Assembly (NCBI RefSeq): GCF_000265205.3
Contig: NC_018000.1
Coordinates: 5,799,001-5,863,000, forward strand
Length of the DNA stretch: 64,000 bases
Direction: 5' to 3'
From: Sinorhizobium fredii USDA 257
GTDB taxonomy: Bacteria > Pseudomonadota > Alphaproteobacteria > Rhizobiales > Rhizobiaceae
Part shown: piece by piece, positions 37,461 to 51,683 of the stretch
Layout of the letters: every line of letters begins with the position of its first letter
Position numbering within the stretch: the stretch's first letter is position 1
Position numbers and translations under genes: made by a program
The notes under the pieces: generated by a model
What the model was told of the DNA's origin: nothing
Seen by the model: the letters and a program-made list of their open reading frames with translations, nothing else
Database searches by the model: none

Positions 37461-40400
37461 GAATAGTCCTCCCGCTCACCCGTGGCTAACCGCATCGGTC
37501 GGGTGACGGTTTGCCTCGCGGTTCGAGCATTGAACAGCCGTTTGATACCGTCGGCGAGCTTCTCCATGTAGAGATAGATCACCGGCGTGACGAAGAGCGT
37601 CAGCGGCTGCGAGACGAGCAGCCCGCCCACCACGGCGACGCCGAGCGGCTGGCGCAATTCCGCGCTGGCGCCAGTGCCGAGCGCGATAGGCAGCGTGCCC
37701 ATGAGCGCGGCGAGCGAGGTCATCATGATCGGCCGGAAGCGCATCAGGCAGGCGCGGTGGATCGCCTCTGCGGCAGGCATGCCGGTGCGCTGGAAAGACA
37801 GCGCCACGTCGATCATCATGATCGCATTCTTCTTCACGATGCCGATGAGCATCAGAAGACCGATCACCGCGATGATCGACAGGTCGAAGCCCCCGAGGCT
37901 GATCGCCAGCAGCGCCCCCGAGGCTGCCGAGGGCAGGCCGGAGAGGATCGTCAGCGGATGGATGAAGCTCTCGTAGAGAATGCCCAGGACGATATAGATG
38001 GTGAGGATCGCTCCGAGGATGAGCCAGGCCTGGTTGGACATCGCATCCTGGAAGAGCTGTGCCGTGCCGTAGTAGCGCGTCGTGACCTCCGACGGCATGC
38101 CGATTTCGGTCTTCAGGCGGCTGATCTCGTCGACGCTGTTGCCGAGCGCCACGCCGGCGGGGAGATTGTAGGAGATGGTAACTGCCGGCAACTGCCCAAG
38201 CTGGTTGACGGTGAGTGGCCCGGGAGACGTGTCTATGCGGGCAAATGCGCCAAGCGGCACCAGCGTGTTGGCGGCGGTCGGCACCTGCAATTGCGCGAGC
38301 GCGGCAGGAGACCAGTTCTTCGCCGGATCGAGCTCCATGATGACCTCGTAGCTGTCGCCCGAGGTGTAGATGGTCGAAATCTGCTCGGAGCCGAAGCCGC
38401 CATAAAGCGTCGAGCGCAGCACGTCTGCCGTGATCCCGAGTGCGGCGGCCTTGTCGCGGTCGATCACGAGCTCTGCCTGGGGCGCATTGTTCTGCAGATC
38501 GGAGTTGACATCGGTGAAGAAGGCGCGGTCCTCGCGCATCGCTTCCGTCAGCTTGTCCGCCCACTCGTTCATCAAGCTTTGATCCAGGCTCTGGACGACG
38601 AGCTGGTATTGGCTGGCGGAGCTGCGTGCGCCGACGGAGAGGTTCTGCACGGGCGTGATGTAGCTCCGGATGCCGGCAATGTCGCCGAGTTGCGATCGCA
38701 GTTCGGAAAGGAGCCTGGGCAATGCCGGCCGTTCGCTTGTCGGTTTCAATTCGACGAAGAGTCTTCCCGAATTCGAGGCCGAGGAGCCGCCCGTGCCGAC
38801 CGAACTCGCCACATGGGCGACATAGGGCGAATGCGCAAACACGTCTTCGACCTTGGCCTGCAGTGCCGACATCGCCGCGAAGGAGATGTCCGGCCGCGCC
38901 TGCGTCGTCACCTGCAGCTGGCCGATATCCTCCTGCGGAAAGAAGCCCTTCGGAGTCGTCCTCACCTGGTAGATCGTCAGACCGATGGTGGCGAAGAAGA
39001 GGATGAGGACGGCGAAGCGATGGCGCATGCAGAACTTCAGGAGACGATCATATCCGCGGAGCATCGCCTCAAAGCCGCGCTCGAGCCGCGCATCGAGCCC
39101 ATGCCTTTCCTGATCATGCTTGGGCATCTCCGGCAGGCGTGCCGCAAGCATCGGCGTCAGCGTCAGCGACACGAATGCCGAGGCGAGAATCGCGATCGTG
39201 ACGACCACGGCAAACTCGTTGAAGATCTTGCCGATCACGCCGCCCATCAGGAGCACCGGGATGAACACGGCGACAAGCGACAGCGAAATCGCGATGATCG
39301 TGAAGCCGATCTCCCTTGAGGCGGAGATCGCCGCCTCGAAGGCGCTTTGTCCTTTTTCCTCCATATGCCGGACGATGTTCTCCAGCATGACGATGGCGTC
39401 GTCGACGACGAGGCCGACGGAAAGCGTCAGCGCCATCAGCGAAACATTGTCGATCGAGAACCCCAGCGCATACATGGCTGTGAAGGTGGCGATGATCGAG
39501 ATCGGCACGGCGAAGGCCGGAATGAGCGTTGCCCAGAGCCGACGGACGAAGAGGAAGATCACCAGGATCACCAGCCCGATCGTGATGGCCAGGGTGAGTT
39601 CCACATCGTCGACAGCGCCGCGCACGGACTGGGAGCGGTCGTTGAGCATCTCCAGCGACGCTGCCGCCGGCAGGGACTGGCGGAACGATGGCAGCATCGC
39701 CTTCACCATGTCGACCACGGCAACCGTATTCGCGTCCGGCTGACGCTGGACGGCAAGGATGATCGCGCGCGAGCCGTCATGCCAGCTCGCGGTCTGAGTG
39801 TCCGCAACCGAGTCGATGACCTTGGTCACGTCGCCGAGCCGAACGGCCTTGCCGTCCGCGCTCTTGACGATCAGCTTGGAGAAGGCGGCGGCATTGTCGA
39901 GTTGCGTGTCGGCGACGATCGTCATCTGCCGCCCGGTGGATTGCATGGTGCCGAGCGGCGAATTGTCGTTTGCCGCCGCGACGGCCGTCTTGAGAGCGTT
40001 AAGCGAAATGCCGCGGGCGGCGAGCGCGTCGGGATCGATCTCGATGCGAACGGCAAACTGCTGGCTGCCGAATATCGAGACTTCCGCGACGCCGTCGAGC
40101 GTCGACAGCGCCGGCGAGATCACCTGCTCCGCCAGCGCGTCGAGTTTGGTGAGAGGCACGGTATCGCTCTTCAATGCGAGCAGCAGCACCGGCGCATCCG
40201 CCGGGTTCACCTTGCGGAAGCTCGGCGGCGAGGGCATGTCCTGCGGCAGCGTGCGCAATGTGCGGGTAATGGCCGCCTGAACGTCGGCGGCAGCGGCGTC
40301 GATATCGCGGCTAAGTTCGAACTGGATGGAGATCGAGGTGGAACCGAGGGCGTTCGTCGTCGAGATGCTGTCGATTCCCGCGATCGTGTTGAACTGCTTG

Positions 40401-40603
40401 ATGAGCGGCGTCGCGACGGAGGTCGCCATCGTCTCGGGGGAAGCGCCCGGCAAGGTGGCGGAGACGTTGATCACCGGAAAATCGGTCCGCGGCAGCGCCG
40501 CGACCGGGAGCACCGTATAAGCAAAGAAGCCTGCCGCCACGAGTGCCAGGGACATCAGCAGCGTGGCGACCGGGCGGCGAATGCAGAATTCGGAGATGGA
40601 CAT
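37457..40603 (-). CDS. RND efflux pump inner membrane subunit (HAE1/MdtBC-like)
   Basis: 1048 residues, the normal length for AcrB/MdtB-type pumps. Twelve membrane helices with two large periplasmic loops; FCIRRPVATLLMSLALVAAGFFAY at the start, LVVDDAIVMLENIVRHMEE in helix 4 (proton-relay aspartates), and GGFDLSIIAVIGLLMLIGIVKKNAIMMID. It pairs with the membrane-fusion protein upstream. No outer membrane factor is encoded nearby, so it would share a TolC-like channel. It is translationally coupled to lpiA. Confidence 0.93.
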   Translation of the reverse strand: MSISEFCIRRPVATLLMSLALVAAGFFAYTVLPVAALPRTDFPVINVSATLPGASPETMATSVATPLIKQFNTIAGIDSISTTNALGSTSISIQFELSRDIDAAAADVQAAITRTLRTLPQDMPSPPSFRKVNPADAPVLLLALKSDTVPLTKLDALAEQVISPALSTLDGVAEVSIFGSQQFAVRIEIDPDALAARGISLNALKTAVAAANDNSPLGTMQSTGRQMTIVADTQLDNAAAFSKLIVKSADGKAVRLGDVTKVIDSVADTQTASWHDGSRAIILAVQRQPDANTVAVVDMVKAMLPSFRQSLPAAASLEMLNDRSQSVRGAVDDVELTLAITIGLVILVIFLFVRRLWATLIPAFAVPISIIATFTAMYALGFSIDNVSLMALTLSVGLVVDDAIVMLENIVRHMEEKGQSAFEAAISASREIGFTIIAISLSLVAVFIPVLLMGGVIGKIFNEFAVVVTIAILASAFVSLTLTPMLAARLPEMPKHDQERHGLDARLERGFEAMLRGYDRLLKFCMRHRFAVLILFFATIGLTIYQVRTTPKGFFPQEDIGQLQVTTQARPDISFAAMSALQAKVEDVFAHSPYVAHVASSVGTGGSSASNSGRLFVELKPTSERPALPRLLSELRSQLGDIAGIRSYITPVQNLSVGARSSASQYQLVVQSLDQSLMNEWADKLTEAMREDRAFFTDVNSDLQNNAPQAELVIDRDKAAALGITADVLRSTLYGGFGSEQISTIYTSGDSYEVIMELDPAKNWSPAALAQLQVPTAANTLVPLGAFARIDTSPGPLTVNQLGQLPAVTISYNLPAGVALGNSVDEISRLKTEIGMPSEVTTRYYGTAQLFQDAMSNQAWLILGAILTIYIVLGILYESFIHPLTILSGLPSAASGALLAISLGGFDLSIIAVIGLLMLIGIVKKNAIMMIDVALSFQRTGMPAAEAIHRACLMRFRPIMMTSLAALMGTLPIALGTGASAELRQPLGVAVVGGLLVSQPLTLFVTPVIYLYMEKLADGIKRLFNARTARQTVTRPMRLATGEREDYS

Positions 40604-40698: not shown

Positions 40699-41912
40699 TC
40701 ACTGCTGCTCCGCAACCCGCGCCTTGTCACCGGCCATGAGATTGTTCTGGCCCTCCGTCACCACCGTGTCGCCCGCCGCAAGGCCTGAGGTGATCGCAGC
40801 CTCCTGGCCGTCATTGGCCGCGACGACGACCGGGCGAACTTCGACCGTGTCTTCGGAGGTGACCCGGTAGACGAATTCGCCTTTTTGGCCGATCTGGACG
40901 GCAACGGCGGGAATGACAGCGGCTTGCGGCAGGGTCTTTTGCTCGATGTCGACCTCGACATATTGCCCCGGCCACAGCTTCTGTTCGCCATTGTCGAACT
41001 TGGCGCGCATCATCACCGTCCCTGTCGCCGTATCGACGGCGGAATCGATGAAGTCGAGCACGCCCGCGCCGACGACCTTGCCGCTACCGCTCAGCCGCGC
41101 CTTGACCTGCGGGGGGAACCGGCGTCGAGCCGCGACTTGAAGCTCTGCAGATATTCCTCCGGCAAGTGGAAAGCGACTTCGATCGGATCGATGGAGGTGA
41201 TGGTGACGAGGCTCGTCGGCGAGCCGCTGCCGGAAGTGCCGACGAGATCGCCGATCGTCATTTGGACGGCACCGAGCCGGCCGTCGATCGGTGCACGAAT
41301 GCTCGTATAGCTGAGTGCCACCTTGTCCGCGTCCACAGTCGCCTGATCGGCGTCGACGGTCGCCTTGGCGGATTGCTGGGCGGCGAGCGCCGTATCATAG
41401 GCCTGCTGCGTGCCGCTTTTGTCGTCGCGCAGCGTTCGTGCCCGGTCGAGTTCGATTCCGGCATCGGTCAGGATGGCCGTGTCCTTCGCCAGTATGGCCT
41501 GGTCGCGGTCGAGTGCAGCCTTCAAGGCGCGGTCGTCGAGCGAGAACAAGAGATCGCCCGCCTTGACCATCTGACCGTCCTTGACATGGATCTCGGTGAT
41601 CTGGCTCGAGACGCGAGCGTTGACCGTCACGGTCTCCGGAGCGTTCACATTGGCGAAGGTTCTGACGACGACGGGAAAGTCCTGCGCTTTCACTTCGGCG
41701 ACTTCGACCGACGCTCCCCGAGGGCCGCCGCCGGATGATTTGCTACCGCTGGACCGCAGTGTCGAACCCTGTGCACCTGAGCCCTGTGGATCGGTGCTGG
41801 CGCCGTCGCCGGTGGCGAGAAGTGCCGGCACCTTGGCCGCGAGCGGCGCGATCGCTATTCCGCCGAGCATCGAGCCGAGAGCGACCATGGCGATGACAAC
41901 ACGGCTATACAT
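40699..41912 (-). pseudogene. Membrane-fusion protein of the RND pump, frameshifted
   Basis: The gene is read in two frames. The first 265 or so codons (start ATG 41912, preceded by GGAG) give a signal/anchor helix, the biotinyl-lipoyl motif and coiled coil (VNARVSSQITEIHVKDGQMV, SIRAPIDGRLGAVQ), then run into a stop at 41091. The rest (MLDFIDSAVDTATGTVMMRA to the end at 40699) is in another frame. Adding one base to the six-G tract at 41111-41116 restores a continuous 404-residue protein. It could be a sequencing error, a real loss, or slippage at a homopolymer. Confidence 0.85.
41111..41116. other. Six-G tract at the frameshift
   Basis: GGGGGG on the plus strand (CCCCCC in the gene). Seven bases would give AGSPPQVKARLSGSGKVV, the expected linker between the barrel and membrane-proximal domains. 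This is where a one-base change must lie. Confidence 0.8.
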
Positions 41913-42078
41913 TACATGCACTCCGCTTTTCCGGGAGCGAGGCATGAGGAGATCATGCTCATTCCCTTCTATGATAAGGACCCGGTTCCATGAATTCAGA
42001 GGCTCGCGCCGAGCCCACAAAGCTGTGGACACCCGCTGCATCTCAGAAGAACTGGGTCGGCAGATCGAGGGGTTAGGT

Positions 42079-42100
42079 GCAGCCCGCATGTGCGGGCTGC
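42079..42100. promoter_or_regulatory. Perfect 22-base palindrome upstream of the pump operon
   Basis: GCAGCCCGCA TG TGCGGGCTGC, 10-base arms. It lies 167 bases before the membrane-fusion protein start and 79 bases past the degP stop. It could be a repressor operator for the pump/lpiA operon or a transcription end for degP; neither strand has a T tract following. Confidence 0.45.
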
Positions 42101-42130
42101 ATATGCTGGAGTCCCTCCAATCCAAGACAA

Positions 42131-42159
42131 CTAACGAGCCCCGGGTTCGGGCCCGTTAG
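42131..42159 (-). terminator. Hairpin downstream of degP
   Basis: Arms CTAACGAGCCC and GGGCCCGTTAG pair with one mismatch around a 7-base loop, 20 bases after the degP stop on the minus strand. The following sequence (TTGTCTTGG) is only moderately T rich, so it is a probable but weak terminator. Confidence 0.5.
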
Positions 42160-42178: not shown

Positions 42179-43651
42179 TTACGCGTGGTCGAGAGGCAGT
42201 GCGACGAAACGGGTGGTGCCGCCCGACTGGATCCGCACCAGCGCAGCAGACTTGCCTTCCTTCCGGAGCGACATCAGGTCCTGGCGGAAATCCCTGGCAT
42301 TCGACACCGCCTTGCCGCCGACGTCGAGGATGATGTCGCCAGCGGAGAGACCATGCTGTGCGGCCTCCCCGTTCGGATCGACGGCGACGACGACCATGCC
42401 TTTTTGGTCGGTACCGGCGACCTTGCTTGCCGGAGCAATCAGAAGACCGAGATTTTGCTCGTTGGGCGGTACGCTGCCGCTGTCGTTCGCCGCGACGACC
42501 TCAGGAGGTCGATCGGCGGGCATCGTGCCGAGTGTCAGCGAGATGTCCTGCATTGCGCCATCGCGGAGCACGGTCAAAGTCGCTGAACTGCCTGGCGCCA
42601 TCTTGCCGATCTTCTGCGCCAGTTCACGCGGATCGTTGATCGCGGTGCCGTCGACGGCGGTAACGACATCGCCCGGCTTGACGCCGGCCTTCGCCGCCGG
42701 GCCATTCGGCTCTGCCTCGTCGATGAGCGCGCCCTTAGCCTGCTTCAGGCCGAGGCTGTCGGCCATATCCGGGGTGATCTGCTGTTGTTGGATGCCGAGC
42801 CAGCCGCGCGTGACATGGCCCTTGTCCTTCAATTCGGCGATCACCGCCTTCGCCGTATCGGCCGGAATGTCGAAGCCGATGCCGACCGAACCTCCGGACG
42901 GCGAGAAGATCGCCGTGTTGACGCCGATGACATCGCCATTGACGTCGAAAGCCGGCCCGCCCGAATTGCCGCGATTAATCGGCGCATCGATCTGGATGAA
43001 ATCGTCATAGGGACCGGCGCCGATATCGCGCCCCTCGGCGGAAACGATGCCGGCCGTGACCGTGCCGCCGAGACCATAGGGATTGCCGATGGCGATTACC
43101 CAATTGCCGACACGCGGGCGCTCGTCGGCAAAATTGACATGCGGAAAATCGCTGCCCTCGACCTTGATCAAAGCGAGGTCGGTCTTCGGATCGGTACCAA
43201 CGACCTTTGCGCTGTAATTCTGCCCGTCATTGGTCGTGACCTCGACCAATTTGGCATGATCGACGACATGATTGTTGGTCACGGCATAGCCGTCCGCCGA
43301 GATGAAGAAGCCGGAGCCCTGCCCGATCATCACCCCGCTTCCACCGCCACTATCGGGAGAACCGTCTTGACCGTCGTCTGCGGTCTGTTGCGTTCCATCA
43401 AGCTCCACCCGCACGGAAATGACCGCAGGCTTCACCCGCGCGACGATGCCGGCAAAGTCGCCCGGCTCGGCTGCGGCTGGCGGCGTCGCCGCCTGCGCGG
43501 CGGCATTCCAGCCGAGCGCATTAGGATGGTGCAGCGCGACGGGTTCCATCACGATCGCTGCGAGGCTCAGCACGGAGACGGACGAAAGGGCCGCCAGAGC
43601 CGCCGTCAAGCGGCGAGCCCGCGAGTTCTTGGTTTTTACAGATCTGGCCAT
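42179..43651 (-). CDS. degP: DegP/HtrA-family periplasmic serine protease
   Basis: 490 residues with an N-terminal export/anchor helix (about 15-36). The trypsin-like domain has the triad H128 (TNNHVV), D158 (KTDLALIKVE) and S230 (RGNSGGPAF), followed by two PDZ domains (GWLGIQQQQITPDMADSL and the LGLLIAPAS region). It degrades or refolds damaged envelope proteins. A sigma-54 type promoter at 43705-43720 and an upstream activator-like site at 43774-43788 suggest control by the neighbouring NtrC-family regulator. Confidence 0.94.
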   Translation of the reverse strand: MARSVKTKNSRARRLTAALAALSSVSVLSLAAIVMEPVALHHPNALGWNAAAQAATPPAAAEPGDFAGIVARVKPAVISVRVELDGTQQTADDGQDGSPDSGGGSGVMIGQGSGFFISADGYAVTNNHVVDHAKLVEVTTNDGQNYSAKVVGTDPKTDLALIKVEGSDFPHVNFADERPRVGNWVIAIGNPYGLGGTVTAGIVSAEGRDIGAGPYDDFIQIDAPINRGNSGGPAFDVNGDVIGVNTAIFSPSGGSVGIGFDIPADTAKAVIAELKDKGHVTRGWLGIQQQQITPDMADSLGLKQAKGALIDEAEPNGPAAKAGVKPGDVVTAVDGTAINDPRELAQKIGKMAPGSSATLTVLRDGAMQDISLTLGTMPADRPPEVVAANDSGSVPPNEQNLGLLIAPASKVAGTDQKGMVVVAVDPNGEAAQHGLSAGDIILDVGGKAVSNARDFRQDLMSLRKEGKSAALVRIQSGGTTRFVALPLDHA

Positions 43652-43704: not shown

Positions 43705-43720
43705 TGCAGACGGTATGCCA
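43705..43720 (-). promoter_or_regulatory. degP: Sigma-54 type promoter of degP
   Basis: On the minus strand it reads TGGCATACCGTCTGCA. It has the required GG-N10-GC spacing and TGGCA at -24, with CTGC for TTGC at -12. It lies 54 bases before the degP start codon and 54 bases downstream of the GTGG-N7-CCAC site. Confidence 0.65.
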
Positions 43721-43773
43721 GATACTAGATGATTGATTTTACGTGATGTTTTCCGAGTGATTCGCGAGTGGCA

Positions 43774-43788
43774 GTGGATATCAACCAC
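43774..43788. promoter_or_regulatory. GTGG-N7-CCAC site A, probable activator site for degP
   Basis: GTGGATATCAACCAC, embedded in a wider inverted pair GAGTGG (43766) and CCACTC (ending 43790). It shares GTGGATATC with site C and TCAACCAC with site B. It lies just past the stop of the hybrid regulator gene and upstream of the degP promoter. Confidence 0.65.
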
Positions 43789-43798
43789 TCGGATCGGG

Positions 43799-44866
43799 CT
43801 AATCCACCACTCGCGTGGCATCGCCTCCGGTAAAATCGATGACGACCCGCGTTCCGCGGTCGCTTGCGTGGACGGTCACAACGGCCCCGAGCTTCATCGC
43901 CATCGCCTCTATGATGAGTTGTCCAAGCCCCGTGGAACCCTCTGCGGAACGCGATCGGCTACCTGTTCCATCGTCCTCGACGCAAAGGCGAATATCGCTT
44001 CCGGACGACGCATGCAGAGCCACGCGAACGGGACCGTTCCCGGAGGCGTATGCGTGTTTCATCGCATTGATGATCAATTCGGTCACAATAACGCCCACCG
44101 CTACCGCACGGTCCGGGTCAAGCACGACCGGATCGGCCGCAAGCGAGAGCCAGCCTTCCTCGTTCGCGGAGGCGCCAATGTCGGCGACGAGCGCATGGAG
44201 ATAGTTGTCGAGCGCGACTGTGCGCACATCGTCCGACGTATAGAGGCGTTTGTGCACCTGGGCGACAGCAAGCACGCGGCCATAGGCGGAGGCGAGAGCT
44301 CCCTTTACGTGCGCATCATGGCTCACGTCGCTTTGCATCAGGAGGAAGGAAGAGACGAGTTGCAGACTGTTGCCGACCCGATGGTTCACTTCGCGAAGCA
44401 GCACGGCTCTTTCGGCCGCGAGCGACTCGAACCGATCACGCGCGGCGCGGACCTCCGCTTCCGCCGCCTCCTTCTCGCGCCGCAGCTTCGCCTGAGCCAG
44501 GGCACCTTCAATCGCGACCCGCAACAGCGCGAGAAACTCGCCCCCGACATCCTTGATGACGTAGTCTGCCGCGCCTGCCTTGAGTGCGGCGATCGCCACA
44601 CGACCCTCGTCCGAGCCGGTCACGTATACCACCGGCGGAGCTTCAGGATCGACGCGGATGGAAGCGAGGGTCTCAAGCCCATCCTGCCCCGGCATGTAGT
44701 GATCGAGCGCCACGACATCGATCCCGCCTGCGCGCAAGCGGCGAAGCCCCTCCTCGCCTGTCGTTGCAAGCTGGACGCTATAGCCGTGCCGCTCGAACTC
44801 CTTGCTGACCAAGCGCCGAAGGGCGGGATCGTCGTCTATGTAAAGGAGCCGGATGGGCGCCATCAC
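43799..44866 (-). CDS. Receiver plus HisKA_2 histidine kinase hybrid
   Basis: 355 residues. An N-terminal receiver (acidic pocket D11-D13, phospho-acceptor D55, K105) is followed by a coiled linker and a HisKA_2 kinase with phospho-His162 in LREVNHRVGNSLQL, and an ATPase domain (ELIINAMKHAYA, DDGTG, GLGQLIIEAMAMKLG). Such kinases typically take part in general-stress or branched relays in rhizobia. It has no sensor or membrane part, so input would come from another kinase phosphorylating D55. It overlaps the receiver gene by four bases. Confidence 0.9.
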   Translation of the reverse strand: MMAPIRLLYIDDDPALRRLVSKEFERHGYSVQLATTGEEGLRRLRAGGIDVVALDHYMPGQDGLETLASIRVDPEAPPVVYVTGSDEGRVAIAALKAGAADYVIKDVGGEFLALLRVAIEGALAQAKLRREKEAAEAEVRAARDRFESLAAERAVLLREVNHRVGNSLQLVSSFLLMQSDVSHDAHVKGALASAYGRVLAVAQVHKRLYTSDDVRTVALDNYLHALVADIGASANEEGWLSLAADPVVLDPDRAVAVGVIVTELIINAMKHAYASGNGPVRVALHASSGSDIRLCVEDDGTGSRSRSAEGSTGLGQLIIEAMAMKLGAVVTVHASDRGTRVVIDFTGGDATRVVD

Positions 44867-45300
44867 GAATTCTCCGCCACTTGTATGACCGAGAAAAAGA
44901 GCCCCAATTGCCGGATGGAATGGGCGAAGCTTTCATATTCGACCGGCTTGGTGATGTAGACGTTGCAGCCAAGATCATAGCACCGCTTGATCTCGTCCTG
45001 ATCGTCCGTTGTTGTCAAAATCACCACGGGCGAGCGCTTCAGATGCTCGTCTGCCTTGATGCGTTTCAAAATGTCGACGCCTGACATGTCGGGCAGGTTG
45101 AGGTCGAGCAATATGAGCAGTGCCCGGCCGGCATGCGCAGTTCCCGCGCCATCCCGGCCGAACAGATAGGCAATCGCGCTCGTGCCGTCGCGGAACGCGA
45201 CAATGTCGTTGCGTACGCCGGCCCGCCTAATATTTTTCTCTATGAGGCGCGCGTGGCCCTCATCGTCCTCAATCATCACGATCGTGACGTGCGTTGTCAT
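44863..45300 (-). CDS. Single-domain response regulator (Rcp1-like)
   Basis: 145 residues, only a receiver: acidic residues E11, D12, D13, phospho-acceptor D66 (LLDLNLPDMSG), T96 and K118 (ITKP). The longer frame to 45669 lies inside the kinase gene and is not real. The layout (long insert before the aspartate, YDLGCNVYITKPV) matches Rcp1/SMa0114-like receivers that pair with kinases through phosphotransfer. Its start overlaps the kinase stop and its stop overlaps the hybrid start, both by ATGA. Confidence 0.93.
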   Translation of the reverse strand: MTTHVTIVMIEDDEGHARLIEKNIRRAGVRNDIVAFRDGTSAIAYLFGRDGAGTAHAGRALLILLDLNLPDMSGVDILKRIKADEHLKRSPVVILTTTDDQDEIKRCYDLGCNVYITKPVEYESFAHSIRQLGLFFSVIQVAENS

Positions 45301-46793
45301 GGGTTTTTCTCCGGCAAAGCGCCCGGTGCGTGGCGCGGCAGCGTCATCGTGAAGGTGCTCCCGCGGCCAGGGTCGGAACGGACGGTAATGGCGCCGCCAA
45401 GGCGGCGGACAAGAGTGCGTACATATGTGAGGCCAATTCCCTCCCCTGGACGGTCCTGGGGCCCTGACCGGCGGAATATCTCGAAGATACGTTCGCGGTC
45501 CTTCGGGTCGATGCCGCGTCCGTTGTCGTTCACCTCGTAGACGACCTCCGACGGCATCGCCCGACCAGTCACCCGGATCTGGCCGGGTGTGTCGTCGCGA
45601 AGGTACTTCAGGGCGTTCTCCAAGAGATTGGCGAAAATCTGCTCGAGAGCAAGGCGGTCGCCGACGCATGGCGGCAAGGACTCGATGATGATTGAGGCCC
45701 CCGACTCCTGCGCCTGGTAGCTGAAGCCGTCGGCCGCTGTTCGGGCCAGCTCCGTCATATCGATCAATTCCAGGCGGAGCTCGCGGCGGCCTTCGCGGGT
45801 GAGCTTGAGAATGGCCTTGATCAGCCGATCCATGCGCGTGATCGAGCTCTTGATAAAGCCCAGCGCTTCATCGAATTCGTGCGCAAGCCGCTCATCCGGT
45901 TCGGAATCGACTTCAGGGCGTGCTCTGAGCAAGGAAATGCGTCCAAAGAGCTCCTTGCGTAGGACCTCCAGCTCACCTGTAAAGCCCATGATGTTGACAA
46001 GCGGGGAGCGCAAGTCGTGGCTTACGATGTGGGCGAAGTGCTGGATTTCCTCATTGGCTTGCCGCAGTTCGGCGGTGCGTTTCGCAACGGTTGCCTCGAG
46101 TGACTCGTTTGCCTCTTCCAGCGCCCTCTGGGCAGTCTTCAGCCGTCCGGTCGAGTGACGCACCAGAGCGACCGAGATCGCGGCCAAGGCAATGATCAGC
46201 GATGCCCCGAAAAGACTCGCGACCAGGAGCAAATGCGCCGTGCTCTGCGAAGCGCCGATCGCTTGTGAAAGCAACTGCTGTTCGTGCCGGACAAGCTGCG
46301 CAACATTTGTCCTAATGTCCTCGGCTCGCGACTGCACCAACGCATCACTTCCAAGAGAGGGGGAACGCTCGAGCTCGCCGCTTTCCCGTTTGGCAACGGC
46401 CTCTTCGAGAAGAGCGAGTTCCGCCGTTACGGCCGCGTCGAGCTTTGTGACAAGCGGCAGACGGCTTTCCTTCCCCACATTACCAGATAGCGCCGCCTTC
46501 GCTTCAGCCAGTGCAATTTTCACCGCCTCCAGGTCGGCGAGAAATGCGTCACGATAACGTTCAGCTCCGGTAAGCAGCAATCCGCGCTGATCGCTTTCGG
46601 CCCGCCAGATCTGACCCTGCAAGTCAAGAAGTTTTTCCTTGGCGTTGAGGGTCCAGATCACCTGCCTGGAATCACCGCGCGACTGGGCCACCAACCATAC
46701 GGATGTTCCGCTGATCATCACAAGGATCGCGAAGCCGAGCGCGAGAAGGAAGGGTTGGCTGGCGGCGAGAGAAGGAGAATATCTCGACATCAT
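45297..46793 (-). CDS. CHASE3-type membrane sensor histidine kinase
   Basis: 498 residues. Two membrane helices (about 14-37 and 187-212) bound a helical periplasmic sensor typical of CHASE3 (LQGQIWRAESDQRGLLLTG). The cytosolic part has a coiled coil, HisKA with phospho-His near 260 (HFAHIVSHDLRSPLVNIMG), and HATPase motifs NLLENALKY, DNGRGID and GIGLTYVRTLV. The start could be either of two adjacent ATGs. It leads the three-gene signalling operon and follows the MFS gene by 106 bases. Confidence 0.92.
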   Translation of the reverse strand: MMSRYSPSLAASQPFLLALGFAILVMISGTSVWLVAQSRGDSRQVIWTLNAKEKLLDLQGQIWRAESDQRGLLLTGAERYRDAFLADLEAVKIALAEAKAALSGNVGKESRLPLVTKLDAAVTAELALLEEAVAKRESGELERSPSLGSDALVQSRAEDIRTNVAQLVRHEQQLLSQAIGASQSTAHLLLVASLFGASLIIALAAISVALVRHSTGRLKTAQRALEEANESLEATVAKRTAELRQANEEIQHFAHIVSHDLRSPLVNIMGFTGELEVLRKELFGRISLLRARPEVDSEPDERLAHEFDEALGFIKSSITRMDRLIKAILKLTREGRRELRLELIDMTELARTAADGFSYQAQESGASIIIESLPPCVGDRLALEQIFANLLENALKYLRDDTPGQIRVTGRAMPSEVVYEVNDNGRGIDPKDRERIFEIFRRSGPQDRPGEGIGLTYVRTLVRRLGGAITVRSDPGRGSTFTMTLPRHAPGALPEKNP

Positions 46794-46899
46794 GTTGGCA
46801 CTCCCCCTTCAAATCCGCGCGATTGCAAGCTGCCACGGCTCACTGTTGATCGAGGTCGGGCATTACGCACAGCAAACATGTTCCACAACGGTTCCACGA

Positions 46900-48180
46900 T
46901 CAGGACGGCGCGACGGGGCCTGTTTCCAACCGGCTGCTATCCCCGCTCCTATTATCGTCTTGCGCTCTTCCGAATTCGACTCCTTTCGCCTCCACACCGA
47001 AGCCGGCCAGAAGCACAACAGCGACGGCGACGACGCCGACGACCATGGCGAGGGCGAAAGCATAGTCACCGTTGTAGTGCTCGGCGAGCCCAGCCTGCAG
47101 AGTTGCATTGGCGGAGGCGAGGAGGTTGCCTAGTTGATAGGTGACGCCCGGGAACGTGCCGCGGATTTCGTCGGGCGACAGTTCGTTAAGGTGCGCGGGG
47201 ATGATGCCCCATGCGCCCTGGACAGCGAACTGCATGAGGAACGCGCCGAGCGCCAGCAGCAGCGGACCGGATGAGTACACCCAAAGCGGAATAACGGGAA
47301 TGGCAAGCAGGGCTGCGAACACGATAGCGCGCCGGCGGCCCATCCTTTCCGACAAGAGGCCGAAGGTGATGCCGCCAAAGATCGCGCCGATATTGTAAAC
47401 CACGGCGATCGCTCCAACGGTCGTCGTTGAGAACTTTTGCTGCACCTCGAGGAAGGTTGGATAGAGATCCTGCGTGCCGTGGCTAAAGAAGTTGAAGGCT
47501 GTCATCAGGAGAATCGTATAGATCGCCAAACCCGCATGCCGCCGCAGTGTGCGCCACAAGGCGCTCCGATCGGGCTTTTGGCGGCGCGCCAGGAAGACGG
47601 GCGATTCGTCGATATTCGAGCGGACATAGAACACGATGAGCGCAGGCAGCACGCCGATCATGAACATGCCCCGCCAACCGACCAGCGGAAAAAGCAGGTA
47701 GAAGGCAAGAGAGGCGAGGAGATAGCCCGCCGGGTAGCCGGCCTGTAGGAACCCGGAAACGAGGCCGCGAGTCTTCGGCGGGATCGTCTCCATCGTCAAT
47801 GACGCCCCAACGCCCCATTCACCGCCCATCGCGATGCCATAGAGCGCTCGCAGAATGATGAGCATGGTCAAGGTCGGTGCGAAGCCGGACGCGAATTCAA
47901 GTGCCGAATAGAGGAGGATGTTGACCATCAGTACCGGCCGGCGGCCAAAGCGGTCGGCAGCGTAGCCGAAGATGAGCGCTCCCAAGGGGCGCATGGCCAG
48001 CGTCAGCGTGAGAGCGATGGTGACCCGTTCAATGTCTGTCCCGAATTCCTCAGCCACATATTTCATGACAAAGACAAGGATGAAGAAGTCGAATGCGTCG
48101 AGCATCCAACCAAGAAAACTCGCGACGACGGCGTTGCGCTGCGGCGAAGTCAGGGAGCGCAGATCTGATAGTATGGGCAT
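46900..48180 (-). CDS. MFS transporter, SHS (sialate/lactate:H+ symporter) type
   Basis: 426 residues from ATG 48180, preceded by GGAGGAAAAC. It has twelve helices, with WMLDAFDFFILVFVM in helix 1, GYAADRFGRRPVLM in the 2-3 loop and GGEWGVGASLTMETIP in helix 4, which are features of SHS carboxylate permeases. Lactate, pyruvate or a related monocarboxylate is the likely substrate. Encoded with a two-component system, it recalls how dicarboxylate uptake is controlled by DctBD. The C-terminal 25 residues are hydrophilic. Confidence 0.85.
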   Translation of the reverse strand: MPILSDLRSLTSPQRNAVVASFLGWMLDAFDFFILVFVMKYVAEEFGTDIERVTIALTLTLAMRPLGALIFGYAADRFGRRPVLMVNILLYSALEFASGFAPTLTMLIILRALYGIAMGGEWGVGASLTMETIPPKTRGLVSGFLQAGYPAGYLLASLAFYLLFPLVGWRGMFMIGVLPALIVFYVRSNIDESPVFLARRQKPDRSALWRTLRRHAGLAIYTILLMTAFNFFSHGTQDLYPTFLEVQQKFSTTTVGAIAVVYNIGAIFGGITFGLLSERMGRRRAIVFAALLAIPVIPLWVYSSGPLLLALGAFLMQFAVQGAWGIIPAHLNELSPDEIRGTFPGVTYQLGNLLASANATLQAGLAEHYNGDYAFALAMVVGVVAVAVVLLAGFGVEAKGVEFGRAQDDNRSGDSSRLETGPVAPS

Positions 48181-48538
48181 GTTTTCCTCCTGGTTAGGCG
48201 GTTCGCGGCGGCACTGAGTTGGTGCGGCGTCGCTCGCGATCATGTGACGCAGACCCAGCGCGCCGGTTTGTCCAGGATGATGGCGCGCATCTTTTTTGCC
48301 TCATTAGCGCTGCCGCCGTGGACCAGGATCACCAATCAAGGAACGGGCCAACAGCCCGATTGGGGCTTTCGATCAGCTTTTCCAAGCAAACCCGCATCGC
48401 CGAACCTTTACGGTCCCGCCTGCGATGGTTTTCGGATCTGGGCCACTTCAGCCAATTGGTGGTTTTCAACCACCTCTGTAGGAGGTAGCGTAAACAAACC
48501 ACAGCCAGGATCGCGCAGCCGCCGAAAGTCGAAGTACG
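48181..48538. promoter_or_regulatory. Divergent region between the MFS transporter and the NtrC-type regulator
   Basis: 358 bases without a gene. It carries site B (48459-48473). A poor -24/-12 match (AGGCAAAAAAGATGCG on the minus strand, 48286-48301) has correct GG-N10-GC spacing and would direct transcription to the MFS gene, 158 bases from site B. No good plus-strand sigma-54 element was found for the regulator. Confidence 0.5.
48459..48473. promoter_or_regulatory. GTGG-N7-CCAC site B upstream of the NtrC-type regulator
   Basis: GTGGTTTTCAACCAC, within the perfect 17-base inverted repeat GGTGGTT-TTC-AACCACC at 48458-48474. It lies 65 bases upstream of the regulator start, so autoregulation or control of the divergent MFS gene is possible. 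Confidence 0.65.
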
Positions 48539-49933
48539 ATGAGTGACGAGCTTCTGATCATCGAGGACGACGCCATGCTAGGCATCGACCTCAAACGATA
48601 TTTCGAACGCGTGGGCTGGAGGACGCGCCTCGTCCGCAGCCTCGAGGAAGCGGGCTCTTTCGTCTTCGGATCTGGCTATGAAGGGCTCGTCGTGCTTTCG
48701 GATCTGCACTTGCCCGACGGTAACGCGCTCGACCTCTTGGAACGCGCCCGCGGCGAGGGCGACAGCCGCGAATGGATATTCCTCACCGGCTTTGGCGAGG
48801 CACCGGATGCGGAGCGAGCCAAGCGTCTCGGCGCCTTCGACTTTCTGACAAAGCCAATGGATCGCGAGCGGCTCGAGCGCATCGTTGCCGCAGCGCGGCG
48901 CGGCGCGCGCGCCCAGAGGCGGATCGCCGACGAAGCTTCGCAGCAGCGCAATCGCTACATCCCGGCCGCCTTCATCGGTCGCAGCAAGGATGCCGCGCGC
49001 GTACGCGATACACTTGAAAGGCTGTGCCAAATCCCGCTCAGCAGTGTCATCATCTCGGGGGAGACCGGCACCGGCAAAGGCCTTGCGGCGCGGATCCTGC
49101 ATCACAGCGGCACGCGCGCCGACGGCCCCCTCGTCGAGGTTAACTGCGCAGCCTTGCCGCGCGACCTCGTGGAGTCCGAGCTTTTCGGCCATGAGGCCGG
49201 TGCCTTTACCGGAGCGAAAGGCAGCCATCGCGGCTTCATGGAACAGGCGAGCGAAGGCACACTGTTTCTCGACGAGATCGGCGAACTCGATCTCGACCTT
49301 CAGGCAAAACTCCTCAAGGCGCTCGAAGACAAGGCAATCCGCCGAGTCGGCGGCGAGCGGATGATACCCGTCGACGTGCATGTCGTGGTGGCGAGCAACC
49401 GAAATCTGCCGGAACTCGTGGCCGAAAAAGCCTTTCGGGCGGATCTCTATCACCGGCTCAACGTTTTCCAGCTCGATCTGCCTCCATTGCGGGCCCGCAA
49501 GGCGGACATCGACGAGATCGTCGACGGTCTCATTCGCGAGTTCAACGCGATTGCCGGCAAGCGGGTTAAACGCGTTCCTCAATCCGTGCACGCGCTCCTT
49601 GCCGCATACGACTGGCCCGGAAACGTCCGCGAACTGCGCAATGTGGTGGAGCGGTCGGTGCTTCTTTCCACCGGCGAAGAGCTGTCGGGCGAGTGGTTGC
49701 AGATCGCGCCGGGCGGTACCCTCGCGAAGACGATGGCTGCAGGCGACGTCATCTCTCTTCCGTTGGACGGCTCCATGACGTTCGATGCGATGGAGAAGTT
49801 GATAGTGGAGTCGATCCTGCAGCGCGAAGGCTACAATGTCCTGGCGGCAGCGCGGAGGCTTGGCCTCACGCGCGAAACCCTGCGGTACCGCATGGCTCGG
49901 CATGACCTGCAGCGGCAGAACGCGCCGCGCTGA
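48539..49933 (+). CDS. NtrC-family sigma-54-dependent response regulator
   Basis: 464 residues. Receiver (E9-D11, D55, T83, K105), then an AAA+ domain with Walker A GETGTGKG (174-181), intact GAFTGA (221-226), which contacts sigma-54, Walker B GTLFLDEIGE, and the R-finger region. A C-terminal Fis-type helix-turn-helix ends the protein (NVLAAARRLGLTRETLRYRM). It is a transcription activator, likely phosphorylated by the adjacent kinase. Its predicted targets carry GTGG-N7-CCAC. Confidence 0.94.
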   Translation: MSDELLIIEDDAMLGIDLKRYFERVGWRTRLVRSLEEAGSFVFGSGYEGLVVLSDLHLPDGNALDLLERARGEGDSREWIFLTGFGEAPDAERAKRLGAFDFLTKPMDRERLERIVAAARRGARAQRRIADEASQQRNRYIPAAFIGRSKDAARVRDTLERLCQIPLSSVIISGETGTGKGLAARILHHSGTRADGPLVEVNCAALPRDLVESELFGHEAGAFTGAKGSHRGFMEQASEGTLFLDEIGELDLDLQAKLLKALEDKAIRRVGGERMIPVDVHVVVASNRNLPELVAEKAFRADLYHRLNVFQLDLPPLRARKADIDEIVDGLIREFNAIAGKRVKRVPQSVHALLAAYDWPGNVRELRNVVERSVLLSTGEELSGEWLQIAPGGTLAKTMAAGDVISLPLDGSMTFDAMEKLIVESILQREGYNVLAAARRLGLTRETLRYRMARHDLQRQNAPR

Positions 49934-49955
49934 GCGCCACGCAAGCCACCGATGA

Positions 49956-49970
49956 GTGGTGGATATCCAC
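49956..49970. promoter_or_regulatory. GTGG-N7-CCAC site C, probable activator site for the DUF1614 gene
   Basis: GTGGTGGATATCCAC, part of a larger symmetric block with GAGTGG at 49954 and CCACTC ending 49979 and the perfect core GGTGGATATCCACC (49958-49971). It ends 56 bases before the -24 element at 50026, the same distance as at degP. Confidence 0.7.
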
Positions 49971-50025
49971 CTTCCACTCTCCTGTCCCACCCCAATAGCT
50001 TAACCCAACCAAAAGCTTAGCTCTC

Positions 50026-50041
50026 TGGCGCGGCGCTTGCT
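50026..50041 (+). promoter_or_regulatory. Sigma-54 type promoter of the DUF1614 gene
   Basis: TGGCGCGGCGCTTGCT: exact GG-N10-GC spacing with TGGC at -24 and TTGC at -12, one clear deviation (G for A in TGGCAC). Start of transcription would be about 50053, 100 bases before the ATG. Confidence 0.72.
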
Positions 50042-50153: not shown

Positions 50154-50936
50154 ATGCATTTGAGCCAACTTCACTACCTCCCTCTTCCTGCGCCTCTTTT
50201 TTCCGCCCTGGCGCTGTCGTTCCTTGTTCTGGTGGCGCTGATTCAGCTCGGAGTGCTGCAATATGCGTATACACGCCTGGGCATCAGCGCCCGTGCTGCG
50301 CTGCTCCTTCTCCTCGGCTCCCTTCTCGGCAGCTACCTCAATCTTCCTTTGGCGGAATTGCCTGGTCAGGAAGTCCTCTCCGGCCGAGTGGTGGATTACT
50401 TCGGCATGCGTTACGTCGTGCCAGTCTTCGTCGATTGGCCTGGGACCATCATCGCGGTGAATGTCGGTGGGGCGCTCATCCCGACATTGATGTCGATCTA
50501 TCTGCTTTCGAAAAACGGGCTGTGGGGCCGCGGCTTGCTGGCGACCGCCGTCGTCGCCGCCGTCTGCCACTGGCTCGCTCGACCGGTGCCCGGCCTCGGC
50601 ATTGCGTTGCCGGTGTTCGTTCCCGCGATCAGCACCGGTCTCGTGGCTCTGCTGCTTTCCCGGCAACATGCGGCGCCGCTTGCTTACGTCGGCGGCAGCC
50701 TCGGCACCCTCGCCGGGGCAGACCTGCTCAATCTCGGAAATCTGCGAGGTCTGGGCGCTCCCGTCGCCTCGATCGGTGGCGCCGGAACATTCGATGGGAT
50801 TTTCGTCACTGCGATCCTTGCCGTGCTCATCGCGAGCCTCTCGCGCGGCTCGCCGTTGAGCCGGCTGTCCTCAGCCGCGACAATGCCGGAAGCGCCCACA
50901 TACGGACCCCCTGAGGCTGGTGGTCGTCACCCATGA
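50154..50936 (+). CDS. DUF1614-family membrane protein
   Basis: 260 residues from ATG 50154 (AGGAGG six bases upstream); an extension to 50088 is not supported. There are about seven hydrophobic segments; LLLGSLLGSYLNLPL, VDWPGTIIAVNVGGALIPTLMSIYLL and SIGGAGTFDGIFVTAILAVLIAS are the conserved features. The family is predicted to be membrane-embedded and of unknown function. Transcription appears to be sigma-54 dependent. Confidence 0.85.
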   Translation: MHLSQLHYLPLPAPLFSALALSFLVLVALIQLGVLQYAYTRLGISARAALLLLLGSLLGSYLNLPLAELPGQEVLSGRVVDYFGMRYVVPVFVDWPGTIIAVNVGGALIPTLMSIYLLSKNGLWGRGLLATAVVAAVCHWLARPVPGLGIALPVFVPAISTGLVALLLSRQHAAPLAYVGGSLGTLAGADLLNLGNLRGLGAPVASIGGAGTFDGIFVTAILAVLIASLSRGSPLSRLSSAATMPEAPTYGPPEAGGRHP

Positions 50937-51018
50937 CCTGGGCGCAATCACCAAGTCAGAATGGGCTGGGCGACGTGAATAAGGCCGAACTCTCAACGGA
51001 AACGGGGTGTTGCTGCAC

Positions 51019-51034
51019 TGGCACGTGGCTTGCT
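51019..51034 (+). promoter_or_regulatory. Full-consensus sigma-54 promoter of the DUF1003 gene
   Basis: TGGCACGTGGCTTGCT matches the TGGCACR-N4-TTGCW consensus at every defined position. Transcription would begin near 51046, 70 bases before the ATG. I see no GTGG-N7-CCAC site within the preceding 80 bases; the nearest is site C, about 1 kb upstream. Confidence 0.85.
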
Positions 51035-51116: not shown

Positions 51117-51683
51117 ATGCAAAACAAGACTATTACCGAACTGGCGGACCGCTGGATGGATGAGGATCCAGGCGACCTCACTGAACTCGAGCAGACGGTT
51201 TTGCAAAGCGCCATTGAGAAACGCGCGGTTTCCAGGGATCGCAACGAGGCCTATGAGAAGGAACTGACATTTGGCGAACGCGTAGCGGACGCAATCGCCC
51301 GGGTAGGCGGCTCGTGGACGTTCATCTTCGCCGCCTTGGCATTTCTGTTGCTGTGGACTGTCGGAAATAGCCTGCTGCTCGGGCGCGACCAGTTCGATCC
51401 GTATCCTTACATCCTGCTCAACCTCGTGCTGTCGATGCTCGCTGCACTTCAGGCGCCGGTGATCATGATGTCGCAGAACCGGCAGGCAGCGCGCGACCGT
51501 CTGGATGCCGCGCACGACTATCAGGTCAATCTCAAGGCTGAGATCGAGATTTTGGCGCTGCACGACAAACTCGATGAACTGCGGCGCAACGAGATCCTGC
51601 AGATACGCGACCAACTAACTGAACTGGCGACCCATCTGCAGCGCATCGATAAAAATGCAATCGCGGGGAGCCGGCCGGAATAA
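51117..51683 (+). CDS. DUF1003 membrane protein
   Basis: 188 residues. A soluble N-terminus is followed by FGERVADAIARVGGSWTFIFAAL, two membrane helices (about 64-85 and 98-120), the family core DPYPYILLNLVLSMLAALQAPVIMMSQNRQAARDR and a C-terminal coiled coil. The function is unknown; members often sit with stress genes. Its start has GGAGACGAGA upstream and follows a consensus sigma-54 promoter. Confidence 0.9.
   Translation: MQNKTITELADRWMDEDPGDLTELEQTVLQSAIEKRAVSRDRNEAYEKELTFGERVADAIARVGGSWTFIFAALAFLLLWTVGNSLLLGRDQFDPYPYILLNLVLSMLAALQAPVIMMSQNRQAARDRLDAAHDYQVNLKAEIEILALHDKLDELRRNEILQIRDQLTELATHLQRIDKNAIAGSRPE

Follow-up and report, generated by a model that had tools for sequence, protein, structure and literature searches.

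A window of 64,000 nucleotides from Sinorhizobium fredii USDA 257 contains a predicted, well-supported local regulon under an NtrC-family activator, in which a TcsA-TcrA-FsrR relay and an orthologue of EbpA likely act through the 14-bp palindrome GGTKGAWWTCMACC on the sigma-54 promoters of degP, an MFS transporter gene and two genes for DUF1614 and DUF1003 membrane proteins (Table 1). Through these repeated DNA switches, one activator probably turns on acid- and envelope-stress genes together. Specifically, in a putatively acid-responsive phosphorelay, the sensor kinase TcsA would signal to the receiver TcrA, this to the receiver-kinase FsrR, and FsrR to EbpA; phosphorylated EbpA would then bind GGTKGAWWTCMACC upstream of a sigma-54 promoter, on a fixed helix face, and activate the RpoN-polymerase there, switching on the four targets and, upon read-through of a hairpin, the pump genes and lpiA-acvB behind degP. 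The initial annotation of this DNA knew of no description of the operator; the pathway is already known, because the cluster and the activator are orthologues of acid-response genes of Sinorhizobium medicae, where they form the TcsA-TcrA-FsrR/RpoN acid pathway, and to this the analysis likely adds the predicted operator, the distance kept between operator and promoter, and a larger regulon.

Table 1. Features computed for the regulon and its surroundings (positions within the window; operators scored as matches to the 14-bp palindrome)
Feature	Position	Strand	Remarks
acvB	33478..34854	-	named from its position and its VirJ domain
lpiA (LPG synthase, MprF type)	34851..37460	-	90% identical to S. 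medicae LpiA
AcrB-family RND pump gene	37457..40603	-	
HlyD-type membrane-fusion gene	40699..42125	-	reading frame interrupted, two pieces
Terminator-like hairpin	42131..42159	-	directly after degP
degP (Do-family periplasmic protease)	42179..43651	-	
Sigma-54-type promoter of degP, CTGGCATACCGTCTGCA	43705..43721	-	sigma-54 site scoring
Operator A, GGTTGATATCCACT	43773..43786	-	13/14; upstream of degP
Weaker second operator-like site	43795..43808	-	10/14; 22 bp further upstream of degP than operator A
fsrR orthologue	43799..44866	-	receiver, HisKA_2, HATPase
tcrA orthologue	44863..45300	-	single receiver domain
tcsA orthologue	45297..46793	-	CHASE3 histidine kinase
MFS transporter gene	46900..48180	-	
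Sigma-54-like element facing the MFS gene, TTGGCCCGTTCCTTGAT	48335..48351	-	-12 part TTGA; conserved
Operator B, GGTGGTTTTCAACC	48458..48471	.	13/14; MFS-ebpA intergenic region
ebpA orthologue	48539..49933	+	receiver, Sigma54_activat, HTH_8 (domain matches); GAFTGA
Operator C, GGTGGATATCCACC	49958..49971	.	14/14, perfect palindrome
Sigma-54-type promoter of the DUF1614 gene, CTGGCGCGGCGCTTGCT	50025..50041	+	sigma-54 site scoring
DUF1614 membrane protein gene	50154..50936	+	ATG 50154 after AGGAGG
Site D, degenerate operator	50919..50932	+	10/14; S. medicae counterpart 12/14
Sigma-54-type promoter before the DUF1003 gene, CTGGCACGTGGCTTGCT	51018..51034	+	highest-scoring sigma-54 site in the window
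DUF1003 membrane protein gene	51117..51683	+	

The CHASE3 kinase, the single receiver and the receiver-HisKA_2 kinase stand in TcsA-TcrA-FsrR order and are 84-94% identical to their counterparts in S. medicae WSM419, which identifies the cluster, by sequence, as the tcsA-tcrA-fsrR acid-response cluster known from that species. WSM419 has the same regulatory genes in the same order, and the promoter regions align with single-base gaps only. In that strain, TcsA-TcrA-FsrR reportedly controls lpiA-acvB together with RpoN and an enhancer-binding protein, as is said to be described in Reeve 2006 and Tian 2017. The paper listings and excerpts searched, which lay outside these two works and so are not evidence of absence, give no description of the operator of the activator. 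The presence of fsrR-tcrA-tcsA in the S. fredii genome, a sister species and two other rhizobial genera contrasts with the statement, in an excerpt of PMC9048898, that these genes are absent from species other than E. medicae. Acidity limits nitrogen-fixing symbioses, according to an excerpt of PMC4941405, and a defined operator would make the gene targets of this acid pathway a question of sequence, naming promoter targets in S. fredii and in other genera.

The activator belongs to the NtrC family, with PF00072, PF00158 and PF02954 all above cut-off and, as the initial annotation had it, an intact GAFTGA motif (residue 221). It is 91.6% identical to its counterpart on a plasmid of S. medicae WSM419, and orthology and synteny equate it with the sigma-54 regulator beside the S. 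medicae fsrR-tcrA-tcsA genes, for which the name is presumably EbpA. The named NCBIfam equivalogs (NtrC, NtrX, AtoC, ZraR, GlrR, NorR, FlbD) all leave it below cut-off; none of the best 25 of 62 models passes, the highest score among them being that of AtoC (319 against 714). EbpA orthologues form a clade with support of 100/99, in which the recognition helix reads TRETLRYR in 15 of 25 rows and keeps L/V-RYR in all 25, whereas RYR occurs in 1 of 16 control regulators. Known systems resemble the regulon in part. ZraS-ZraR, the enterobacterial envelope-stress system, likewise couples an NtrC-family activator and sigma-54 promoters to periplasmic protection, but its kinase design and targets differ, and the S. 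fredii activator scores 259 against the ZraR cut-off of 760. NtrC itself acts from palindromic upstream sites of -24/-12 promoters, on one helix face and sometimes in pairs, a layout that the predicted operators share, but its palindrome differs from GGTKGAWWTCMACC and its model gives the activator 318 against a cut-off of 558.6. In E. coli, degP is likewise under a two-component system, although its regulator CpxR is of the OmpR family and is not known to use sigma-54.

De novo motif discovery at the loci of EbpA orthologues recovered GGTKGAWWTCMACC as a 14-bp palindrome: at width 14, rhizobial loci outside Sinorhizobium gave a log-likelihood of 166, against 39-44 in five shuffled sets. In this run the sigma-54 cut-offs were 21.0 for rhizobial, 20.5 for distant and 22.3 for control loci, the last yielding only 20 promoters; the site weights are background values and are not fitted, genes in related loci were called mechanically as ORFs, and the loci are the best 80 among the matches listed. 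Some orthologues may have escaped the searches of the family and the order, in which only the 4-5 best candidates of each genome were scored, at E <= 1e-120. When a single sigma-54 cut-off of 20.4 is applied to all sets, the seven EbpA loci from rhizobia other than Sinorhizobium contribute 43 sigma-54-type sites, 12 of which have an operator of at least 13/14 lying 30-110 bp upstream, whereas none of the 150 sites from the 65 loci that belong to other NtrC-family regulators has one; for at least 11/14, the counts are 23/43 and 9/150, and 200 shuffles of the 43 sites give a mean of 0.9 and a largest value of 4. At distant loci (gamma-proteobacterial and others) the motif is weak, with no clear lead over the controls, and it is not claimed there: at width 14 the values are 59 against 38-45 in shuffles, with controls at 55 against 37-49, at width 17 they are 79 against 48-53, with controls at 70 against 48-55, and the operator reaches at least 13/14 at 1 of 39 sigma-54-type sites and at least 11/14 at 7 of 39.

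The starting point for this motif was the claim that three sites reading GTGG-N7-CCAC mark an NtrC-type local regulon. The regulon is well supported, by the conserved sites and by the de novo motif in other genera; the motif was mis-specified. The window contains this pattern exactly three times, at 43774, 48459 and 49956, and the three sites are real, with the third about 3 bp out of register with its true core (49958-49971). It was abandoned as the operator for want of enrichment in the genome, where it occurs at 97 places against 91 for a reversed control. These figures feed the explanation that three GC-rich palindromes fell into one cluster by chance, as does the expectation for the window (0.64 sites for the 3 observed, a number reached by 3 of 100 shuffles); that explanation is barely credible, being contradicted by conservation amid diverged flanks, by the de novo recovery and by the control counts. 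The aligned intergenic regions keep the operators despite diverged flanks, all 4 Sinorhizobium sequences in the alignment share an identical core at operator A, and the palindrome adjoins ebpA itself at each of the 7 loci compared. The initial annotation had named non-conservation in other Sinorhizobium species as grounds for giving up the regulon; the proposal survives because the orthologous regions of both other Sinorhizobium lineages found with the activator gene keep the three sites. The window holds three more 12/14 operator matches, at 29576, 33586 and 57401.

Predicted sigma-54-type promoters face degP and the DUF1614 gene, as first proposed; their distances to the near end of the respective GTGG-N7-CCAC site are 53 and 55 bases. 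Their spacing is TGGC-N7-TTGC; the TGGC-N8-TTGC pattern offered at first finds neither and was dropped. The two-promoter scheme also overlooked the best sigma-54 match of the window, before the DUF1003 gene, and the candidate promoter that faces the MFS gene from the middle site. GG-N10-GC in a TGGCAC-N5-TTGC context is found in the degP (with CTGC), DUF1614 and DUF1003 promoters, and is lacking in the MFS-facing element, where TTGA replaces TTGC. The latter conforms to TGGCC-N6-TTGA, a pattern chosen post hoc on viewing the alignment; all 7 orthologous intergenic regions contain it, where about 0.005 occurrences per region would be expected. The predicted operators of the window would serve degP, the MFS-facing element, the DUF1614 gene and, weakly, the DUF1003 gene. 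Of 21 operator-promoter pairs, 19 have a start-to-start distance of 64-98 bp, and the spacing is helically phased, with a period of 10.5 bp and an R of 0.68, a value as high as which arose in 0 of 20,000 simulations; the predicted operators are, like enhancers, conserved dyads at helically phased distance. Together with the recognition helix shared across the clade, this phasing yields binding predictions for EbpA.

The palindrome could alternatively belong to a regulator other than EbpA, such as a repressor or a global factor, with a different enhancer-binding protein driving the sigma-54 promoters. This is improbable: the phasing speaks against it, as do the constant operator beside ebpA and the motif itself, which in other genera turns up where an EbpA orthologue is encoded and not beside other NtrC-family regulators, even though operator B is paired only with a non-canonical promoter and the forward-oriented pattern of operator plus sigma-54 promoter occurs in 16 of 33 genomes of the genus, only 3 of which have ebpA. 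The reverse-oriented pattern occurs in exactly these 3 of the 33, at one orthologous promoter. The forward pattern was dropped as a genome-wide detector, being unspecific both by the 16 of 33 genomes and by the 1 of 20 listed places that lies at an ebpA locus; it misses the DUF1614 promoter of genome G012, which reads TGGT, and the pair of G004, which is spaced beyond its limit, and at its one other match in the S. fredii genome no sigma-54-type site reaches 17.5. The S. fredii genome has 22 operators with at most one mismatch. Around the 19 that lie beyond the window, sigma-54-type sites within 160 bp score 18.4 at most; these near-matches, which lack a convincing promoter, were rejected as further regulon members.

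Control by EbpA leaves the nature of the signal to be weighed. The same regulon may answer to envelope or another stress, in which case the acid response of lpiA would be a single output of a broader membrane-stress system. TcsA carries a CHASE3 sensor domain, and the genes linked to predicted operators include degP, ftsH, patatin phospholipase, BON and YflT/DUF1269 genes, that is, general envelope or stress genes. This reading is nonetheless unlikely, since related loci place YfdX and HdeA, which are acid-stress proteins, behind predicted operators, although mostly weak ones. In addition, excerpts of PMC5613336 and PMC4674904 state that acid-activated expression of lpiA in S. medicae requires fsrR or the tcsA-tcrA-fsrR cluster, and an excerpt of the former that lpiA is essential for enhancing the survival of this species under lethal acid. 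Acid stays the favored signal for the relay to EbpA. Related loci also pair the predicted operator with genes for LpiA, carbonic anhydrase, FtsH, YfdX and patatin, and another genus has a YflT-carbonic anhydrase-LpiA operon.

The window adds lpiA-acvB, behind degP, to what the initial annotation had covered. The hairpin that follows degP argues against simple co-transcription of lpiA in S. fredii, which would depend on read-through, although the region, with 11 terminator-like hits, shows no excess over shuffles, which average 12.5. It is suggested, tentatively and with slightly more doubt than confidence, that EbpA is the founding member of a widespread clade of regulators with an operator of its own, GGTKGAWWTCMACC, commanding an old sigma-54 acid and envelope response (the lipid synthase LpiA, the acid chaperones YfdX and HdeA, periplasmic carbonic anhydrase, DegP, FtsH and patatin lipase), and that S. 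medicae gained acid activation of lpiA by two deletions and no new promoter, the first removing the hairpin and the pump genes behind degP and the second degP itself, which fused lpiA to the degP promoter. This offers a concrete history for the capture of lpiA by a stress promoter. The deletion scars of S. medicae show the route by which lpiA came to adjoin the degP promoter: in the window, degP and the pump genes stand ahead of lpiA, whereas WSM419 retains, ahead of lpiA, only 27 degP codons and a short piece from the end of the pump gene.

Operators A to D, 14-bp palindromes graded here by the number of matching positions, form with their predicted sigma-54 promoters a regulon that sequence comparison indicates to be genuine and conserved, and whose kind is already known. 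The initial annotation had proposed a local regulon of an NtrC-type activator, and its conservation upholds that part, but GTGG-N7-CCAC does not stand as its motif, nor is the pathway undescribed, since it has already been published in S. medicae, where Tian et al. reportedly outlined an acid pathway with RpoN and an enhancer-binding protein. As far as the literature searched shows, the candidate operator, its phasing, the putative additional targets, the occurrence beyond S. medicae, and the apparent deletion history are new; EbpA binding, the transcript starts, and acid dependence in S. fredii are predictions. The activator combines receiver, AAA+, and Fis-type HTH domains and, as first noted, carries an intact GAFTGA motif (residue 221); among the best 25 of 62 NCBIfam models matched, none passed. 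We take it to be the orthologue of the sigma-54 regulator beside fsrR-tcrA-tcsA in S. medicae, and EbpA to be the name of the latter.

Features of the locus (window positions)
Feature	Position	Strand	Remark
HlyD-type membrane-fusion gene	40699-42125	-	two reading frames; between degP and pump gene
Terminator-like hairpin	42131-42159	-	11 pairs; directly 3' of degP
Sigma-54-type promoter facing degP	43705-43721	-	consensus scan
Operator A (degP)	43773-43786		
CHASE3 kinase, lone receiver, receiver-HisKA_2 kinase	within 43799-46793		three genes; domain content
Operator B (MFS/ebpA)	48458-48471		
ebpA	48539-49933	+	activator
Operator C (DUF1614)	49958-49971		
Sigma-54-type promoter facing DUF1614 gene	50025-50041	+	consensus scan
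Site D (DUF1003)	50919-50932		
Sigma-54-type promoter facing DUF1003 gene	51018-51034	+	consensus scan; top score in whole window

In the annotated S. medicae record CP140906, the same series of kinase and receiver genes is named tcsA, tcrA, and fsrR, and adjoins lpiA and a sigma-54 regulator without a gene name. The S. medicae regulator is 91.4-91.8% identical to the window activator in 13/13 plasmid records found, all of S. medicae. The locus sits on a 6.48-Mb contig in the window genome and is plasmid-borne in S. medicae (replicons of about 1.0-1.6 Mb). Acid activation of lpiA requires or implicates fsrR or the tcsA-tcrA-fsrR cluster, according to three papers (PMC5613336, PMC4674904, PMC9048898).

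The pattern GTGG-N7-CCAC does occur where it had been reported, at 43774, 48459, and 49956, and the window holds no further copy (0.64 expected; three reached in 3/100 shuffles). Genome-wide, the pattern gave 97 matches versus 91 for the reversed control and in this form is therefore hardly informative. The genome holds 22 operators with at most one mismatch (reversed control, 4). These include A, B, and C; around the remaining 19, no sigma-54-type site within 160 bp exceeds a score of 18.4. The consensus scan, with weights based on the sigma-54 literature, recovered both promoters initially assigned to degP and DUF1614, and also the DUF1003 promoter, absent from the initial annotation although it is the best match of the window.

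The operator was also recovered de novo by a two-strand search of width 14 on the 105 bases upstream of each above-cut-off sigma-54-type site in related loci, blind to any operator. Twenty-six sites from rhizobial genera other than Sinorhizobium gave GGKnGATATSMACC (log-likelihood 166 versus 39-44 in five shuffled sets), and when the search was confined to the three rhizobial loci that are most distant, their 12 sites yielded GGTTnATWTCCACC (99 versus 36-42). Distant loci, most of them gamma-proteobacterial, contributed 34 sites and gave a weak similar motif (59 versus 38-45); 20 control sites, from loci of other NtrC-family regulators, gave a different one (55 versus 37-49). Widening the search to 17 positions again left the distant set (79 versus 48-53) not clearly above the controls (70 versus 48-55). 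Because of these comparisons, the palindrome GGTKGAWWTCMACC is claimed as the putative operator of EbpA-type loci for rhizobia only.

Among sigma-54-type sites scoring at least 20.4, an operator of at least 13/14 stands 30-110 bp upstream of 12/43 in seven non-Sinorhizobium rhizobial loci (six genomes, five genera), 6/18 in three Sinorhizobium loci, 1/39 in 15 distant loci, and 0/150 in 65 control loci. At 11/14 or better, the counts are 23/43, 7/18, 7/39, and 9/150, respectively; when the seven rhizobial loci were shuffled 200 times, the mean at this level was 0.9 and the maximum 4 of 43. Within the genus, the reverse-oriented operator-promoter pattern matches exactly the three genomes with ebpA, in each case at the promoter of degP or lpiA. 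The forward pattern matches 16/33 genomes, and only 1 of 20 places among the matches listed is at an ebpA locus, which counts against relying on that pattern alone.

Start-to-start distances from operator to promoter were taken for 24 operator matches of at least 12/14 in Sinorhizobium and other rhizobial loci, and 21 remained after removal of three homologous copies of window promoters; these cluster at 64-67, 75-79, 84-88, and 96-98, and the two left over are 57 and 109. A period of 10.5 bp fits best (R 0.68; reached by 0/20,000 random draws), for pairs that are partly dependent, some being divergent promoters with a common operator and some coming from related genomes. Such phasing is what an activator bound on one helix face would be expected to leave.

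Across the window genome, a sister species, and two S. medicae types, the alignment of operator A and the degP promoter needs nothing larger than single-base gaps, and all four sequences have a weaker second site 22 bp upstream. The region between the MFS gene and ebpA contains operator B and is, across seven aligned loci of three genera, poorly conserved apart from B and a TGGCC-N6-TTGA element facing the MFS gene, 120-157 bp away. The element, a pattern picked after viewing the alignment, occurs in 7/7 loci versus about 0.005 expected per region; its spacing is that of a sigma-54 promoter, and its -12 base is unusual. At one of these loci (L097) the MFS gene is reduced to a remnant. In S. 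medicae WSM419 (L104:13368-14609), it matches in four separate pieces and looks broken; operator B and the promoter-like element persist. Operator C, a perfect palindrome upstream of DUF1614, stands before a patatin lipase gene instead in the sister species, and site D is degenerate in the window (10/14) versus 12/14 in S. medicae.

Other candidate targets have an operator and promoter upstream in comparison genomes: YflT-carbonic anhydrase-LpiA (12/14) and the divergent FtsH and YfdX-Sel1 protein (13/14) in G195; YflT (12/14), with LpiA about 1 kb beyond, in G709; carbonic anhydrase (12/14) and patatin (13/14) in G121; DUF1269, patatin, and a sensor kinase beside ebpA (14/14 each) in G239; and YfdX, with operators of only 11/14, in G053 and G515. 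Distant bacteria offer weak single cases, namely BON proteins (11/14, 12/14) and an HdeA-family protein (11/14). YfdX and HdeA are acid-stress proteins, and their recurrence behind predicted operators, some of them weak, fits acid as the signal. A cytochrome oxidase subunit I gene at locus L105 is preceded by a strong sigma-54-type site, with a perfect operator (17996, minus strand) 66 bp from that site, which is contained in a mechanically long ORF before the gene. At locus L101 (7091-7498, minus strand), an operator (13/14) and sigma-54-type site face a gene that lies opposite the sensor kinase gene; its small product has an apparent signal sequence and matches no Pfam family.

In the window, lpiA and acvB share a strand with three genes that precede them: degP, the broken membrane-fusion gene, and a pump gene of AcrB type. 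The degP promoter of WSM419 leads into the initial 27 degP codons; next come about 85 bases, in which two short stretches match the pump-gene end (47/55 and 24/31 bases), and then lpiA. S. medicae T2 and ml49 have a complete degP, a 104-residue pump-gene piece, and lpiA; by coverage, a third strain resembles these and ten, WSM419 included, are of the WSM419 type. The sister species keeps degP and the pump gene, with lpiA a 28-residue stub. Deletions from a window-like ancestor explain all these arrangements. The first may have opened a path from the degP promoter into lpiA, because T2, where degP joins the pump-gene piece, lacks the hairpin after degP; terminator-like hairpins are no commoner in the region than in shuffles. 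An S. meliloti record with lpiA and no EbpA match has no comparable operator or promoter before lpiA (best operator 11/14, about 1.1 kb from lpiA; best sigma-54 score 17.7).

At E <= 1e-120 the activator is rare, with 3/33 genomes in the genus, 5/297 in the family, and 2/397 in the order, window genome included, and 1/3 and 2/16 in the genera of two matches. The 15 nearest loci among the matches listed (named genome contigs; closer kin may exist) are 50-57% identical and comprise 11 gamma-proteobacteria and one each of beta-proteobacterium, myxococcote, spirochaete, and Nitrospinaceae. In a tree of 41 rows, 25 EbpA-like proteins form a single clade (support 100/99); the recognition helix is TRETLRYR in 15/25 and ends in LRYR or VRYR in 25/25, versus 1/16 controls. 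G195 has two EbpA copies on separate contigs (L096, L097) with operators at each, and its operator-bearing FtsH and YfdX-Sel1 genes lie about 6 kb from one copy.
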